46,622 bases of DNA from contig CALFOZ010000191.1 in assembly GCA_937919205.1 (NCBI GenBank), positions 1 to 46,622 of the forward strand. The letters are read 5' to 3'. Made by a program: the position numbers and the translations under genes. The stretch comes from an uncultured Planctomycetia bacterium (GTDB lineage Bacteria > Planctomycetota > Phycisphaerae > Phycisphaerales > SM1A02). How positions within the stretch are numbered: position 1 is the first letter of the stretch; each line of letters opens with the position of its first letter. The notes beneath the pieces were generated by a model. It had not been told where the DNA came from, did not search any database, and was given only the letters and a program-made list of their open reading frames with translations. Positions 8,135 to 46,622 of this stretch are shown in pieces.

Positions 8135-9007
8135 ATGGCACCACTTCCAATAGAAATTTTTGGTCATCGCGTTATCGCGAAAATTGGAACCGGGGCCGCA
8201 AGCCAGGTGTTTGTTGTCCAAGATATGAAGACCAAGCAGGTTTGGGCGCTGAAGCAAGTGGTTTTGGCTGGTGAAAAATCAGATCGTTTTATTGAACAGG
8301 TTGAACAGGAATATGCGATTGGGTCCAAATTGGATCATGTGAATATTCGCGCCATTCATAAAATCTTGCGCACCAAAAAATTATTCACCACCACCGAAGT
8401 TGGCTTGTTGATGGAATTGGTGGACGCGGAAACCTTGGATGATCAACATCCGGAAAGCGTGGGCATGGCCGCGAACTTATTTGCCCAAGTGGCCCGCGGG
8501 CTTGAGCACATGAATGAGCGTGGATTTGTGCACGCGGATATGAAGCCAATCAACGTGATGGTGACTGGCGAAAAACAAGTGAAGATTATTGATTTGGGAC
8601 AAGCGTGCGCCGTGAATGAAGTGAAGAAGAGAATTCAAGGAACGCTTGGGTACATCGCGCCAGAGCAGGCCCATCTTCAGGCGATCACAGCCCAAACAGA
8701 CGTGTACAACTTTGGAGCCATGGTGTACAGAGTTCTTGCCGGTGAAATTATTCCAACCGCTTTGCAAATTGGCGCTGACGGAGTTTCCATGTCGGCCGTG
8801 ACGCCCAGCATGGTGAAACTTCCAACGCCGCTGAGTAAGAAACGCGTTGGAATTCCCGATGAATTGAGCGATCTTGTTCAGGAGTGCATACAACTGAAAC
8901 CGCAAGATCGCGTTCAGGGAATGGGTCAAGTTGCCGAACGATTGGAAATGATCTCGTCCGCGCTTGGCGATACGCATATGGGCATGCGGGCGGTTGGCGC
9001 CAAGTAA
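8135..9007 (+). CDS. Soluble serine/threonine protein kinase (Hanks type)
   Basis: A compact 290-residue kinase domain with no membrane segment or sensor domain. It has the glycine loop (IGTGAASQVF, 18-26), the lysine of the AxK motif (Lys 40), the catalytic loop HADMKPIN (Asp 135, Asn 140), the metal-binding DLG (Asp 153), a GT-x-GYIAPE segment, and the DVYNFG helix-F motif. The HRD arginine is Ala, so it is a non-RD kinase that may not need activation-loop phosphorylation. All catalytic residues are present, so activity is likely; substrates are unknown. The final codons and stop form the first unit of a 13-bp direct-repeat array. Confidence 0.9.
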   Translation: MAPLPIEIFGHRVIAKIGTGAASQVFVVQDMKTKQVWALKQVVLAGEKSDRFIEQVEQEYAIGSKLDHVNIRAIHKILRTKKLFTTTEVGLLMELVDAETLDDQHPESVGMAANLFAQVARGLEHMNERGFVHADMKPINVMVTGEKQVKIIDLGQACAVNEVKKRIQGTLGYIAPEQAHLQAITAQTDVYNFGAMVYRVLAGEIIPTALQIGADGVSMSAVTPSMVKLPTPLSKKRVGIPDELSDLVQECIQLKPQDRVQGMGQVAERLEMISSALGDTHMGMRAVGAK

Positions 9008-9051
9008 CGGCACCAAGTAACGGGACCAAGTAACGGCACTAAGTAACGGCA
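9000..9051 (+). repeat. Four 13-bp direct repeats after the kinase gene
   Basis: Four tandem copies of CCAAGTAACGGCA (with one-base variants) begin in the last codons of the kinase gene. A fifth AAGTAAC lies at 9077-9083, inside the inverted repeat GTAAC-A-GTTAC at 9079-9089. Each copy carries TAA, and the 13-base period puts a stop in all three frames. The array ends 62 bases before the deaminase start. Confidence 0.85.
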
Positions 9052-9086
9052 CTAATGTAATCACCAATACGCGTGCAAGTAACAGT

Positions 9087-33479: not shown

Positions 33480-35498
33480 ATGCCGCGCACCGCACTTGCT
33501 CAACGTAATGTCATTCGTGCCGCCACCATAATGATGTGTGTCGCCTGTTGCTACGCGCATTCGCACGCGCAAGATCAAGCGCCTGTTCGGCGCACTCCTG
33601 GCGAGGTGGCGTTCATCAAAGCCATAGACATGGCGCCGGCGGATGCGATCAGTGTGGCCGTTGTCCCCAGCGCGCAATCTTTGGGCGAGGACATGGGCGA
33701 GCTTGCGGCCAAGTTGCAACGCATGCAGGCGTTGACGGAAATGAAGCCACTCGATTTGCTCAAAAGTCAACTTGGGGTTGGTCCAGGCATGAATGATCGC
33801 GGCGCGTTTGTGGCGTGGTTTGTTGGCGCCGCCGATCAAACATCGCAGTGGTGCGCGCTGATTCCAACCACCGATGGCGCGAAATTTTTGCAGGCGAATT
33901 TTGAAGCCACTCCAACCACCGCGCCCGACGCGTTTGTGTGGCGTGGAAAAACTGTGTACGCAAAAATCATCGACGGCTGGGTTGTGGTCAGTCAAAGTCC
34001 GGAGCTTGCACGGTTGTATGTGGCCAAGCCTGGCTTGTCCGAGCGCTTGAAAAAGCGTCTGGGCGAGCGTGGTTTCGCCGTGTTATGCGATGGAGAAATT
34101 GGTGTGTGGGCTGGTCCGCAAGCGCTGGCGGATATGCGCAACGCCGGCCAAATGGCGGCCACGCAAGTGCAGGATGCGGCGCCAACATCAAATGAAAAAA
34201 ATAGTTCCAAAAATGATTCCAAGCTCGATTTAAAAGCGCAGGCGCAACCATCACCAAGTGATCGCGTTGCAAAGCTCATGCAGGGCTTGACCGATGGAGT
34301 GTTCAGCGTCGATGTTGATCCGCTTGGCGTGTTGATTCACAGCTACGCGGTGCTTGATCCCGCGAGTGAGTTGGGAAAATCCGCGCGCGGTGGGGCGCAA
34401 CTTGGCGTGGATCCCGCCAAAGATCCCGCCAAAGATCCCGCCAAAGATATTGGCGGCGCCAAACTGGATCGTTTACCGCGCGGCCGATTTGTGTTTGCCG
34501 TTGCCGCGGATATGGACGGTCTTGGTGGAACGCAGGCGTTTCTAGATCTTGCGGCGCAAATCCCTGGCGGCGAGCAGATTCCAGCATGGATCGAGCAAAA
34601 TAAAAATCTCGCCAGCGCAATTCAATGTGCAATCTATCCAAGCAAGTTGGGCGTTGTCGGTGGCGGAATTTTAAATGACGCCGTCATGTGGATAGCCACC
34701 GCCGACAGCGTCAAAGCAAAATCTGTCATGGAGCAGTGGATGCTTTCTCTTTCCGGAGAAATTGATGGACAGAAGCGCGAGGCCGTGTGGGAAAAAGACC
34801 GCGTGTTGAAAAGTGGAATGACCACGGACGCGTACACCGTCAAGGACATTCCGCTTCCAAAGAATGGACAGCCCGCCCGTAAAAATAATCCCATGGAACG
34901 CATTGTCCGCTCATTGATCTACGGTCCGAAAGGCCCGAACGGATTTGTGAAAACATTTCCAGACGGTCTCTATGTGACTTTCAGCCAGCGGCCAGATGTC
35001 CTGGAAAAAGCCACGCATTGCGCCACCGGAGCAAACTCGCTTGAAGGCGACGCGGTTCTTCGCGCCTTGCGCGGGTGGATGATGCCTAGGCCCGACGCGC
35101 TTGCGTTTGTTGGCGTGGGCTCGTTGCTGAATGTTGTTCGACAAGCGGCCAGCGCGTTTCCGATGGGCATTATGGAAATACCAGATGCGCCGCCAGATTT
35201 GGAACCAATCGCATTTGGTCTTTCGGTCAATGGTGGCCACATTGAAACTTCAACAATGGTTCCCACCAACGTGATTGGCGTGGCTGTCACGGCGTACGCG
35301 GATCGCAAGGACGCCCAACGAGAAGATCAGCAAGAAGATCAGCAAGAAGATCAGCAAGAAGATCAGCAAGAAGATCAGCAAGAAAATAAGAAAAAAATAG
35401 AAGGCAAACAAAATTCCGCACAAGATGATTCAAAAATAAAATCTTCTCCCGCCACCAAGCCAACACTAACCCCAACACCCGCGCCCAAAAATCCGTGA
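33480..35498 (+). CDS. Large secreted protein of unknown function
   Basis: A 672-residue protein with an N-terminal signal peptide (cleavage near SHA-QD). The body alternates beta-rich segments with charged linkers and looks like the DUF3352-type secreted proteins of planctomycetes (ISVAVVPSAQ, FVAWFVGAADQ, FVFAVAADMDG, DALAFVGVGSLL), but this is uncertain. Two in-frame tandem repeats are visible: DPAK three times (34410-34445) and EDQQ five times (35322-35381), the latter in an acidic, Gln-rich tail followed by a Pro/Thr/Lys-rich end. A TATTTT sequence and AAAGAA lie upstream; there is no leaderless box. The stop overlaps the GTG start of folP. Confidence 0.7.
   Translation: MPRTALAQRNVIRAATIMMCVACCYAHSHAQDQAPVRRTPGEVAFIKAIDMAPADAISVAVVPSAQSLGEDMGELAAKLQRMQALTEMKPLDLLKSQLGVGPGMNDRGAFVAWFVGAADQTSQWCALIPTTDGAKFLQANFEATPTTAPDAFVWRGKTVYAKIIDGWVVVSQSPELARLYVAKPGLSERLKKRLGERGFAVLCDGEIGVWAGPQALADMRNAGQMAATQVQDAAPTSNEKNSSKNDSKLDLKAQAQPSPSDRVAKLMQGLTDGVFSVDVDPLGVLIHSYAVLDPASELGKSARGGAQLGVDPAKDPAKDPAKDIGGAKLDRLPRGRFVFAVAADMDGLGGTQAFLDLAAQIPGGEQIPAWIEQNKNLASAIQCAIYPSKLGVVGGGILNDAVMWIATADSVKAKSVMEQWMLSLSGEIDGQKREAVWEKDRVLKSGMTTDAYTVKDIPLPKNGQPARKNNPMERIVRSLIYGPKGPNGFVKTFPDGLYVTFSQRPDVLEKATHCATGANSLEGDAVLRALRGWMMPRPDALAFVGVGSLLNVVRQAASAFPMGIMEIPDAPPDLEPIAFGLSVNGGHIETSTMVPTNVIGVAVTAYADRKDAQREDQQEDQQEDQQEDQQEDQQENKKKIEGKQNSAQDDSKIKSSPATKPTLTPTPAPKNP
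34410..34445 (+). repeat. Three 12-bp in-frame repeats (GATCCCGCCAAA)
   Basis: Three exact 12-base copies that encode DPAK in the secreted protein. The unit is a multiple of three, so copy changes keep the frame. Confidence 0.9.
35322..35381 (+). repeat. Five 12-bp in-frame repeats (GAAGATCAGCAA)
   Basis: Five exact tandem 12-base copies encoding EDQQ in the acidic tail of the secreted protein, followed by a diverged partial copy. Perfect identity suggests recent expansion by slippage. Confidence 0.92.
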
Positions 35499-44018: not shown

Positions 44019-44957
44019 ATGCTCAAAGGCTTGTCCAACACCAAGCACTTTTTACAAATCGAAGGCTTGTCCCGTGAACAGCTTCAGGGTTTGTTGGCGG
44101 CCGCCAAAAACAATTTGGCGGTGGCAGATCAACGAGTGGCCCGCAAGGACGCATTGGCCGGCCGCGTGATTGCCAATTTATTTTTTGAGGATTCCACCCG
44201 TACTCGTTGTAGCTTTGAAACCGCCGTGCATCGACTTGGCGGTGAAGTATTTACCCTTGCCGCAAGTGGTTCTAGCGCGAGTAAGGGCGAAAGCTTGGTG
44301 GACACCGCCCTAAACATAGAAGCCATGGGCGTAAGCGGCCTTGTCATTCGTTCCACAATTGCAGGCGGTCCGGCCATGGTGGCCAAGCGGGTTTCTATTC
44401 CAGTTATTAATGCGGGGGACGGCCGCCACGAGCATCCAACTCAGGGCCTACTTGATCTACTAACTCTTCAGGAGTCCTTGGGGTCCCTTCAGGGGAAACG
44501 AGTCGCCATTGTTGGAGATATTGCCAACAGCCGAGTCGCACGCTCGGCAACTCATGGTCTTGCAATTCTTGGTTGCAATGTTGTTCTAATTGGGCCTCCA
44601 ACCTTGGTTAACAAATCACACCAAGAAATGACTAAATTTGATAAACTTGTAACTATTTCACACGATTTAGATTCTAATTTACGCGATATTGATGCAATAA
44701 TGATGCTTAGACTTCAGACCGAAAGAGCGGCATCTTACGGGGTATCATCTGATTACAGGACATTGTACGGGCTTACAACTGAGCGCGCGCTTAAATTAAA
44801 AAACGGGGCAGTTGTTCTACATCCTGGACCAGTCAATCGTGGCGTGGAAATCGATGATGCGGTTGCAGATGAATTTGGTGGAACTCGGATTTTGCGCCAA
44901 GTTACTCACGGAGTTGCCGCAAGAATGGCCGTCTTGGAGCAAGTTATTAGACATTAG
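44019..44957 (+). CDS. pyrB: Aspartate carbamoyltransferase catalytic subunit
   Basis: First committed enzyme of pyrimidine synthesis. Carbamoyl-phosphate site FEDSTRTR (about 56-63), HPTQGLLDLLT, the SSASKGESL loop Lys, and the C-terminal HPGPVNRGVE are visible; the 312-residue length is normal. No regulatory chain or pyrC follows. Codon use shifts inside the gene: after about base 44400, codons such as AGA, AGG, ATA, GTA, ACA and TCA become common, unlike its 5' part and the rest of the window. The start has TATAAC 7 bases before it and no Shine-Dalgarno site. Confidence 0.97.
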   Translation: MLKGLSNTKHFLQIEGLSREQLQGLLAAAKNNLAVADQRVARKDALAGRVIANLFFEDSTRTRCSFETAVHRLGGEVFTLAASGSSASKGESLVDTALNIEAMGVSGLVIRSTIAGGPAMVAKRVSIPVINAGDGRHEHPTQGLLDLLTLQESLGSLQGKRVAIVGDIANSRVARSATHGLAILGCNVVLIGPPTLVNKSHQEMTKFDKLVTISHDLDSNLRDIDAIMMLRLQTERAASYGVSSDYRTLYGLTTERALKLKNGAVVLHPGPVNRGVEIDDAVADEFGGTRILRQVTHGVAARMAVLEQVIRH

Positions 44958-45134: not shown

Positions 45135-46622
45135 TTGCCTAAATCTATCACCTGTATTTTTATCTTGGCGCTACTAGCGTTCACCGCTCTTAACGGATGC
45201 GAAACGGATGGTTTTTTTGATCCAAGCCGAACAGGTTATTTTGAAACAACCCCATCAGCCATTCCAATTTTAACCCGCCTCGATGTCATAGAACAGGCGA
45301 TTGATGGTCCTGAATTTGTCAATCCAACACCTGAGGATTTGAAACCTGGAGATTTGTCTTATAAATTCTCGCCAGGCGACGTGCTCAGAATTCAAATTCC
45401 AAGTTTGATGCAAACTGGGCAAACAGAAATTGCCGAAAGAGTTGTGGATCAAACTGGAGATATTCAACTTCCTGTGATCAACAAGGTGCAGGCCGCGGGT
45501 CTTACCACGGAAGATTTGCAGGCAAGTATTGAAAAAAAGCTGGAGGGAATTATTAAAAACCCAAAAGCTTTCGTTTCGTTGCAAGAAGGGCGTGCATTTC
45601 AGTTTCGCATCCTTGGATCTGTGGATCAACCTGGGCTATACGCGCTGAACAAGCCCGATCTTCGATTGCTCGACGCAATCGCAACCGCCCGTGGAGCAAG
45701 CGCAACCACCACCAGAATTTATATAACTCGAGAAAAAATCGCCGACGAAAACAAAGTGACCTACGGCAAAAAAGCCGCGACCCCCGAAGCTCAGACCACA
45801 TCGTCCACAACTTCACCACAGACAGTTCAGCCAACAACCACTCCAACAACTCCAACTCAGGCGATTCCATCAACAATCGACATTGATCAGTTAATCAATG
45901 AATTGCCAAATAGCACTGCTACGCCAGCAACACCAGCACCCAACTCGGCACCAACAACCGAACCCAGCGCGGCACCAACAACCGAACCCAGCGCGGCGCC
46001 AACAACCGAACCTACCGCGGCACCAACTACCGAGCCAACCGCGGCACCAACTACCGAGCCCACCGCGGCGCCAACAACTGAACCCACCGCGGCACCAACT
46101 ACCGAGCCAACCGCGGCACCAACTACCGAGCCCACCGCGGCGCCAACAACTGAACCCACCGCGGCACCAACTACCGAGCCTTCAAAAAGCCGTACGCGAT
46201 TGGGATTGCTTCAAACAGAAACCCGTCCAGACCCTCCTGTGGATATTGATCAACTTGCGCCCGCCACATTAGATGATCGTGCTGGGCAAAATTCGGATGC
46301 GGCCCCGGTTGTGAATTCCTCTGACGCCAACACGGGCGAAAAGTATGTCTTTGATAACGCATCTCAATCGTGGGTGCGTACATCGTCCACCACCCCAACA
46401 AAAGCAAATGATTCAGCGGTCGTTGGTTCTGTGGGCTCAGGTGAAACCACAACAAGCGATCCCGCGGGCGCAAAATTAAAATCCAACGAGGCCGCCGATG
46501 TTTTAAGTAAAAAGCGCGAATCCGCTAAGAAAGAAAAATATGAAGTTATTGATATCTCATACAACGATTTAGTTCGTGGCCAACCCAATCTCAATATTGT
46601 GATTCGGCCAGGTGATTTAATT
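45135..46622 (+). CDS. Polysaccharide-export lipoprotein (Wza-like, 3' end missing)
   Basis: Only the first 496 codons are seen. The protein begins with TTG (no ATG in frame after the preceding stop) and has a signal with lipobox LNGC (Cys 22). Residues about 74-152 form the polysaccharide export domain (YKFSPGDVLRI, VVDQTGDIQLPVINKVQAAGLT). An SLBB domain begins at about 155 (RILGSVDQPGLYAL, LLDAIATARGA) and is interrupted by about 260 disordered residues carrying PTTEP[ST]AA repeats; it resumes near 469 (YEVIDISYNDLVRG, VIRPGD). It likely forms an outer-membrane channel for exopolysaccharide. Upstream 177 bases are AT-rich with no gene. Confidence 0.87.
   Translation, partial: MPKSITCIFILALLAFTALNGCETDGFFDPSRTGYFETTPSAIPILTRLDVIEQAIDGPEFVNPTPEDLKPGDLSYKFSPGDVLRIQIPSLMQTGQTEIAERVVDQTGDIQLPVINKVQAAGLTTEDLQASIEKKLEGIIKNPKAFVSLQEGRAFQFRILGSVDQPGLYALNKPDLRLLDAIATARGASATTTRIYITREKIADENKVTYGKKAATPEAQTTSSTTSPQTVQPTTTPTTPTQAIPSTIDIDQLINELPNSTATPATPAPNSAPTTEPSAAPTTEPSAAPTTEPTAAPTTEPTAAPTTEPTAAPTTEPTAAPTTEPTAAPTTEPTAAPTTEPTAAPTTEPSKSRTRLGLLQTETRPDPPVDIDQLAPATLDDRAGQNSDAAPVVNSSDANTGEKYVFDNASQSWVRTSSTTPTKANDSAVVGSVGSGETTTSDPAGAKLKSNEAADVLSKKRESAKKEKYEVIDISYNDLVRGQPNLNIVIRPGDLI
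45948..46187 (+). repeat. 24-bp tandem repeats encoding PTTEP[ST]AA
   Basis: Nine full units of 24 bases and a partial tenth. Units 4-6 and 7-9 are identical sets of three, so a 72-base block has duplicated on top of the 24-base unit. The frame is kept throughout. Confidence 0.92.

Follow-up and report, generated by a model that had tools for sequence, protein, structure and literature searches.

A long insert, predicted to form a mainly disordered arm, in the first SLBB domain of a Wza-type polysaccharide-export lipoprotein of the Phycisphaerae

OPX proteins, the Wza superfamily of polysaccharide exporters, combine a secretion or lipoprotein signal with a Poly_export domain and, behind it, SLBB sequence. 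Class 1 adds Wza_C and Class 2 adds GfcC; Class 3 has neither, and its median length is given in the available part of one account as 256 aa (PMC9603273). Inserts are known in the SLBB superfamily: the accessible portion of the paper describing them places them after the helix in the transcobalamin clade or, as small inserts, between strands 4 and 5 in the Nqo1/OPX/ComEA clade, with a disordered low-complexity loop suggested for ComEA (PMC1796856). In the E. coli Wza-Wzc structure the D1 domain of Wza contacts the forearms of Wzc, and the text available to us describes D1 alone in this role (PMC12881504).

We identified a gene for an OPX (Wza-type) outer-membrane lipoprotein of an exosortase-linked exopolysaccharide locus at the end of the window, by which we mean the whole 46,622-nucleotide stretch analysed here, the entire contig C191 of a 2.49-Mb, 241-contig assembly. 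According to the ORF list and Pfam, the gene occupies 45135..46622 on the forward strand, as do all of its features given below; the frame has a TTG start, encodes 496 residues and is still open at position 46622, where the contig ends. The last 110 bases (46513-46622) are repeated, at 95% and with 5 mismatches, at the end of contig C180, and on C180 the frame continues through a second SLBB domain (PF10531, 32.6 bits, cut-off 27) to a stop. Three of the mismatches alter amino acids, and the set looks more like a strain difference at the contig break than like sequencing noise.

The protein begins with a signal peptide (45135..45200) carrying the lipobox LNGC with its cysteine at residue 22, a call made by reading the sequence and not by a signal-peptide program; Gly 21 and Cys 22 are among the columns conserved in at least 90% of 72 sequences. 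The Poly_export domain (PF02563, residues 75-149, 45357..45581) scores 59.9 bits against a cut-off of 28 and is the sole Poly_export match found in its genome. The first half of SLBB1 (residues 155-203, 45597..45743) supplies beta1, beta2, the helix and beta3, as judged from Pfam, an AlphaFold2 model and superposition on Wza, and the SLBB_2 profile covers residues 157-203 through its positions 3-50 of 79 only, at 24.1 bits, under the cut-off of 27. At the beta3-beta4 turn a 268-residue insert, rich in Pro, Thr, Ala and Ser, follows (residues 201-468, 45735..46538), delimited by comparison with orthologues and modelled mostly as low-confidence coil. The domain then resumes as YEVIDISYNDLVRG...VIRPGD, and residues 469-496 (46539..46622) provide beta4, a short helix and the start of beta5 in the model and the superposition before the contig ends. 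The first-pass annotation had proposed a polysaccharide-export lipoprotein with an interrupted SLBB domain, and the lipobox, the Poly_export match and the resumption of the fold at residue 469 bear this out.

By its Pfam content, Poly_export and SLBB only, the exporter is assigned to OPX Class 3, notwithstanding its extra sequence (the insert and a C-terminal tail). All 67 orthologues match Poly_export, and all 67 match SLBB at an E value of 0.01 or better; in the exporter itself the SLBB domain encoded on C180 exceeds the cut-off. Wza_C (PF18412) was absent from the C180 part at E 1e-4 and from the 67 orthologues at E 0.01, although a short divergent helix could escape such a search, and GfcC (PF06251) gave zero Pfam matches in either. 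There is a distant resemblance to GfcC, part of which can be superposed with SLBB2 (3p42; Z 10.6, 76 residues, rmsd 1.8). The tail of the orthologues is strongly conserved (27 residues, 462-488, in orthologue L070) and lies behind SLBB2, at the place that the Wza_C helix takes in Wza. The exporter scores 50.7 bits against the XrtA/PEP-CTERM exporter model TIGR03027 (curated cut-off 180) and 52.6 bits against EpsE, TIGR03028 (curated cut-off 262.65). Plasmid records returned distant export proteins alone, in eight records, and in none of the eight did a single place cover 80% of the query.

The neighbourhood is that of an exopolysaccharide locus. An exosortase gene (PF09721, 155.1 bits, cut-off 25.7) lies downstream of the exporter on C180, on the same strand, and is followed by genes for a DUF3485/EpsI-like protein, a TPR protein, a tyrosine-autokinase-like protein, a sugar epimerase and a WecA-like transferase. 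The TPR protein is best matched by TIGR02917 PrsT (117.8 bits, below the cut-off of 312) and the autokinase-like protein by TIGR01007 (73.8 bits, below the cut-off of 108). Among the fetched loci of relatives, 72 of 80 and 78 of 80 likewise have an exosortase gene downstream of the exporter and in the same orientation; the eight and two misses are mostly loci cut short, with L091, L110 and L150 not very short. Directly upstream of the exporter, locus annotation places a pyrB-like carbamoyltransferase gene (44019..44957, forward strand), and pyrB matches occur in at least 27 of 80 and at least 34 of 80 of the fetched loci, whose upstream flanks are short.

An AlphaFold2 model was built from the window fragment together with 71 orthologues. 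Block means of pLDDT are 90-97 for residues 61-200, 96-97 from residue 471 onward, and 42-74 between 211 and 470, although thin alignments can also give low pLDDT. Strands at 194-202 and 467-475 bracket the insert, and counting strands in the SLBB fold puts it between beta3 and beta4. Residues 65-496 of the model superpose on residues 73-247 of Wza (2j58) with Z 14.1 over 160 residues (rmsd 2.8), leaving at most 15 Wza residues of that range unaligned, and the full-length model of orthologue L070 superposes on Wza 62-345 with Z 15.2 over 256 residues (rmsd 4.7). Since the superposition spans both flanks of the insert, the SLBB1 fold closes across the gap in the model, and SLBB1 is, on the evidence of these models, a single fold interrupted by a long, mainly disordered arm. 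The earlier suggestion of a disordered stretch within one SLBB domain is thus upheld for the window fragment and for the full-length orthologue, and the two flanks do not turn out to belong to different domains.

The first 204 residues of the exporter have a match in 93 of 101 genomes (its own and those of relatives), and in 77 of these the match is single. Within the order, 80 loci were fetched and four (L044, L045, L048, L078) were left out as cut by contig ends; all 76 loci with both halves in one frame carry the insert, with lengths of 97-467 aa (median 141), and one further genome of the order (G065), measured separately, has an insert of 93 aa. A class-wide profile search gave matches in 119 of 120 genomes, the exception being G149. 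All 70 proteins measured from other orders of the class have the insert (66-358 aa, median 141.5), although these loci were recruited with a profile that itself contains it; the search covered 101 genomes of other orders, of which 69 are represented here and about 29 had no loci fetched.

The first of these class sets (54 proteins and one duplicate, mostly single long matches) has inserts of 101-264 aa. To reduce the bias of this set, 20 extra loci with split or weak matches (18 from other orders, together with G126 and G065) were fetched, and the 17 that could be measured extend the insert lengths down to 66 aa. Two loci with their halves in different frames (L337, L341) were not counted, G126 has just a short OPX protein with the second part missing, and three rows were dropped before counting: L227, at the same place as L266; L229, from G065; and L230, the window itself. 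Two additional OPX copies, L326 in G148 and L327 in G132, both from one family, have shorter inserts of 66 and 70 aa with the histidine-rich stretches HGHGHH and HRHEHH, which are possibly metal-binding.

Outside this group the site is shorter, with 0-64 aa in the OPX proteins of the other classes of the phylum (19 measured, from the 22 best-match loci of the 95 other-class genomes with a match, L242, L243 and L251 being dropped as having no match to the C-terminal part). In short OPX paralogues of the class it does not exceed 34 aa, judging from 13 mostly rough measurements of which only three rest on C-terminal matches above 40 bits and one is negative (-67) through misalignment; these came from 15 of 30 loci that were chosen for short frames, with L297 and L302 dropped for want of a C-terminal match, and since the frames are short (260-425 aa) they leave little room for any insert. 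In a FastTree tree of 182 sequences, made from the Poly_export/SLBB1 part only, all 147 insert-bearing proteins group in one clade, which contains no protein lacking the insert (local support 0.963). Because the insert-bearing proteins measured form one clade, a single gain near the base of the class, with retention ever since, is the probable history of the arm, as far as this sample goes. The insertion had been called unusual: against the OPX proteins of other classes it is, but within its own lineage every measured orthologue has one.

Given that the contig ends inside the gene and that the overlap with the next contig contains mismatches, a misassembled repeat might have fused two genes or domains. 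Many separate assemblies, including single-contig genomes, nevertheless show the architecture of the exporter in an unbroken frame, and several congeners carry the insert with other repeat units. We therefore consider an assembly error or a two-gene fusion extremely improbable and have ruled it out.

The most conspicuous part of the insert is a tandem array at 45948..46180, consisting of nine full APTTEP[ST]A units and a broken tenth. The nine 8-residue units lie in codon register at 45948-46163, and Tandem Repeats Finder (TRF) reports a period of 24 bases (9.8 copies, 85% match) and a period of 72 bases (3.4 copies, 92% match). Units four to six (46020-46091) equal units seven to nine (46092-46163) base for base, so that the second-level duplication of 72 bases, noticed together with the nine repeats in the first-pass annotation, is exact. 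A search with the window protein also returned circumsporozoite proteins (E down to 2.2e-17), which we rejected as homologues, the matches being low-complexity ones to the array.

Only 11 of the 77 inserts of the order set contain tandem arrays with a TRF score of at least 80: ten in the genus of the window, the window included, and one in L086. Genus member L047 has none by the same program. Two inserts (L041, L043) share the 24-base APTTEP-type unit with the window, and the other arrayed inserts have different units with periods of 18, 30, 36, 45, 57 or 75 bases. In the 45 family inserts in which three conserved elements (A, B and C, described below) were all found, the linker between A and B, where the array lies, is 67-127 aa long in nine genus members versus 16-76 aa in 36 other members of the family. 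Since the arrays are mostly bound to the genus and differ in unit and period, we conclude that the repeats lengthened the A-B linker recently and repeatedly, at the level of the genus, in a feature that is itself old. The idea that the repeats are the essential feature is ruled out by their presence in so few inserts, and the description of the insertion as repeat-filled holds mainly for the genus of the window. The case shows that a conspicuous repeat can be a late addition to an old feature.

Several other repeats were seen. Linkers rich in PT and TA (TAPTTAP- and AAPTTTP-type) occur in two more predicted proteins of the genome (L006 2521-3966 and L007 1534-2418), so such linkers are not unique to the exporter. 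Elsewhere in the window, exact 12-base tandem arrays at 35321-35384 (5.3 copies, QEDQ-type) and 34410-34448 (3.2 copies, AKDP-type) share one predicted 672-aa ORF (33480-35498). A 13-base tandem repeat at 8996-9052 (4.4 copies), whose period is not a multiple of three, begins in ORF 8135-9007, which looks protein-kinase-like by eye, and extends beyond its end.

The composition of the arm would suit a passive spacer or cell-wall linker, in which length and flexibility alone matter and the repeats are neutral products of slippage. The insert of the window is rich in P, T and A, and the median hydrophobic fraction is 0.21 in 76 inserts versus 0.37 in the core. The Pfam family PF04886, "PT disordered repeat", matches the window protein at 21.7 bits, below the gathering cut-off of 26.2, and reaches E 0.01 or better in just one of 67 orthologues. 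The variety of repeat units and periods among many congeners, and the PT-rich linkers in two other proteins of the genome, also point in this direction. Such a spacer leaves unexplained the conserved motif blocks and the hairpin, found far more often than in shuffled sequences, and we regard it as very unlikely. The flexible arm or spacer proposed earlier thus fits the linkers but does not account for the conserved elements.

There are three of these elements. Motif A, IDIDQLINELP (residues 248-258, 45876..45908), is a short helix in the model, and is recognised by pattern and by conservation in the genus. Motif B with its lead-in, SKSRTRLGLLQTETRPDPPVDIDQL (residues 350-374, 46182..46256), was defined from the family inserts and from genus conservation. 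Motif C, GEKYVFDNASQSWVRT (residues 401-416, 46335..46382), is an aromatic beta-hairpin predicted by the model and recurring in patterns and in the genus. IDIDQL at 45876-45893 and VDIDQL at 46239-46256 stand one on each side of the array, as the first-pass annotation had it. Among the eleven members of the genus, the mean frequency of the top residue is 0.73-0.82 in the motif blocks versus 0.45-0.49 in the linkers.

The patterns were composed after reading the inserts. A looser motif-A pattern occurs in 75 of 77 order inserts versus 16.7 in shuffles, and in 25 of 54 inserts from other orders versus 8.2. The VDIDDL-type motif is present in 49 of 77 order inserts versus 1.1 in shuffles. All 49 lie among the 51 inserts of the window's family, in one to four copies (two or more in 29); none of the 26 inserts from other families of the order and none of the 54 in the first other-order set contains it. 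In L339, a protein of another order, the 358-aa insert contains a related IDxEExLxxL-like motif five times, an independent case of a short arm motif being multiplied.

The two short strands of the hairpin (403-407 and 412-416) have raised pLDDT in the model, with block means of 74 and 70, and its pattern occurs in 70 of 77 order inserts, the window included, versus 0.9 in shuffles, and in 32 of 54 inserts from other orders versus 1.0. A profile made from the order only reaches 2 bits in 44 of these 54, versus 0.8 per 54 shuffled sequences; with patterns composed after the inserts had been read, this is the fairest of the motif tests. In the less favourable second set the strict hairpin occurs in 5 of 17 inserts (5 of 16 other-order proteins). 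By sequence comparison, the aromatic hairpin, near the C-terminal end of the arm, is thus shared by most members of the order and by part of the class. The 27-residue hairpin of the window had zero matches among PDB sequences, and weak matches of the profile of 77 hairpins to Kelch blades, EVH1 and PCF11 (best E 3.2e-05) were rejected as kinship and ascribed to a shared hairpin pattern. The hairpin may also bear a likeness to the well-known model hairpins of protein G B1 and the tryptophan zippers and to choline-binding repeats.

We conclude from these comparisons that the arm consists of small conserved elements (a leading amphipathic motif, in this family VDIDDL, and in part of the class the aromatic hairpin) joined by fast-diverging linkers. 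The elements could pack on neighbouring subunits as an extra collar, the disorder being confined to the monomer model. Agreeing with such folding on assembly, the hairpin, motif A and, in the window model, a tail helix have raised block-mean pLDDT of about 65-77 amid low surroundings, and the clade has no insert-free member; but among the 45 family inserts the spacing runs from 16 to 127 aa between A and B, 19 to 69 between B and C, and 17 to 63 between C and the end. Because spacing so variable hardly allows a fixed collar, we think folding of this kind distinctly unlikely.

The hairpin is rich in W, Y and F, and aromatic side chains stack on sugars. The arms might therefore point inward, with the hairpins lining or gating the channel and binding the passing polysaccharide; SLBB domains are thought to contact the polymer, in the available text of PMC9603273, and inserts in SLBB domains were predicted to join in ligand binding, in that of PMC1796856. 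An arm of 66-467 aa per subunit would nevertheless crowd the lumen if the exporter is an octamer, and the acidic and amphipathic motifs seem to resemble protein-docking elements more than sugar-binding ones. We consider a place in the lumen unlikely.

We favor instead, with a probability of roughly 0.5, an arm that serves as a flexible tether in the periplasm, with motifs that dock a partner in the export machine. The exporter would form a ring like that of Wza, and every subunit would send one flexible arm from the SLBB1 ring into the periplasm, where the motifs would dock a partner that belongs to the same machine and sits in the periplasm or the inner membrane. Candidate partners in the locus are the large TPR protein and the tyrosine-autokinase-like co-polymerase. 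The length of the linkers would set the reach of the arm, and in the genus of the window slippage of the PT-rich repeats may have lengthened one of them. Since the available account of the Wza-Wzc contact involves D1 only (PMC12881504), an arm on D2 has no known counterpart there, and arms extending from the SLBB1 ring would couple the machine in an additional or a different way.

Such a ring could bear a crown of long flexible arms, each carrying several docking motifs and in many cases an aromatic hairpin that folds by itself, and this crown could recruit lineage-specific machinery (the TPR protein, the co-polymerase or exosortase-processed proteins), which we offer as a doubtful extension. 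If true, the crown would be a trans-envelope coupling unlike the direct D1-to-Wzc contact of E. coli, and repeat number would tune its reach. An insert that defines a clade and contains short motifs that can be recognised suggests that the export machine has a lineage-specific contact, one open to testing.

In the open-access literature, a scope outside which most subscription papers fall, we found no description of an insert at this SLBB position, and the main text of PMC9603273, as available, does not mention such an insert or contain the terms "hairpin", "disorder" or "Planctomyc". Within that literature, the exporter represents a known kind of protein, a Class 3 OPX, with a lineage-specific insert at a previously undescribed SLBB position. 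Like Wza of the E. coli group 1 capsule (PDB 2J58, 9r60/9r64), it is a lipoprotein with Poly_export and two SLBB domains (Z about 14-15); unlike the exporter, Wza lacks an insert of this kind at its beta3-beta4 turn and does have a C-terminal Wza_C helix. Class 3 proteins such as M. xanthus WzaB (PDB 9n9a) share with it the content of Poly_export and SLBB only, lacking Wza_C and GfcC, but the complete orthologues of the order have open frames of 463-868 aa versus the Class 3 median of 256 aa given in the accessible text of PMC9603273.

The XrtA/PEP-CTERM exporter (TIGR03027) and EpsE (TIGR03028) are also OPX proteins with significant similarity, and the exporter falls far below their curated cut-offs. 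The outer-membrane lipoproteins LpoB and RcsF have a disordered N-terminal segment that reaches across the periplasm with a binding element; the analogy is to their way of working and not a claim of homology, as the exporter's segment is an insert in a channel domain. Inserts in SLBB domains are themselves of a known kind. Those described in the available part of PMC1796856 follow the helix or lie between strands 4 and 5, so that the insert of the exporter, between strands 3 and 4 and far longer, occupies another site.
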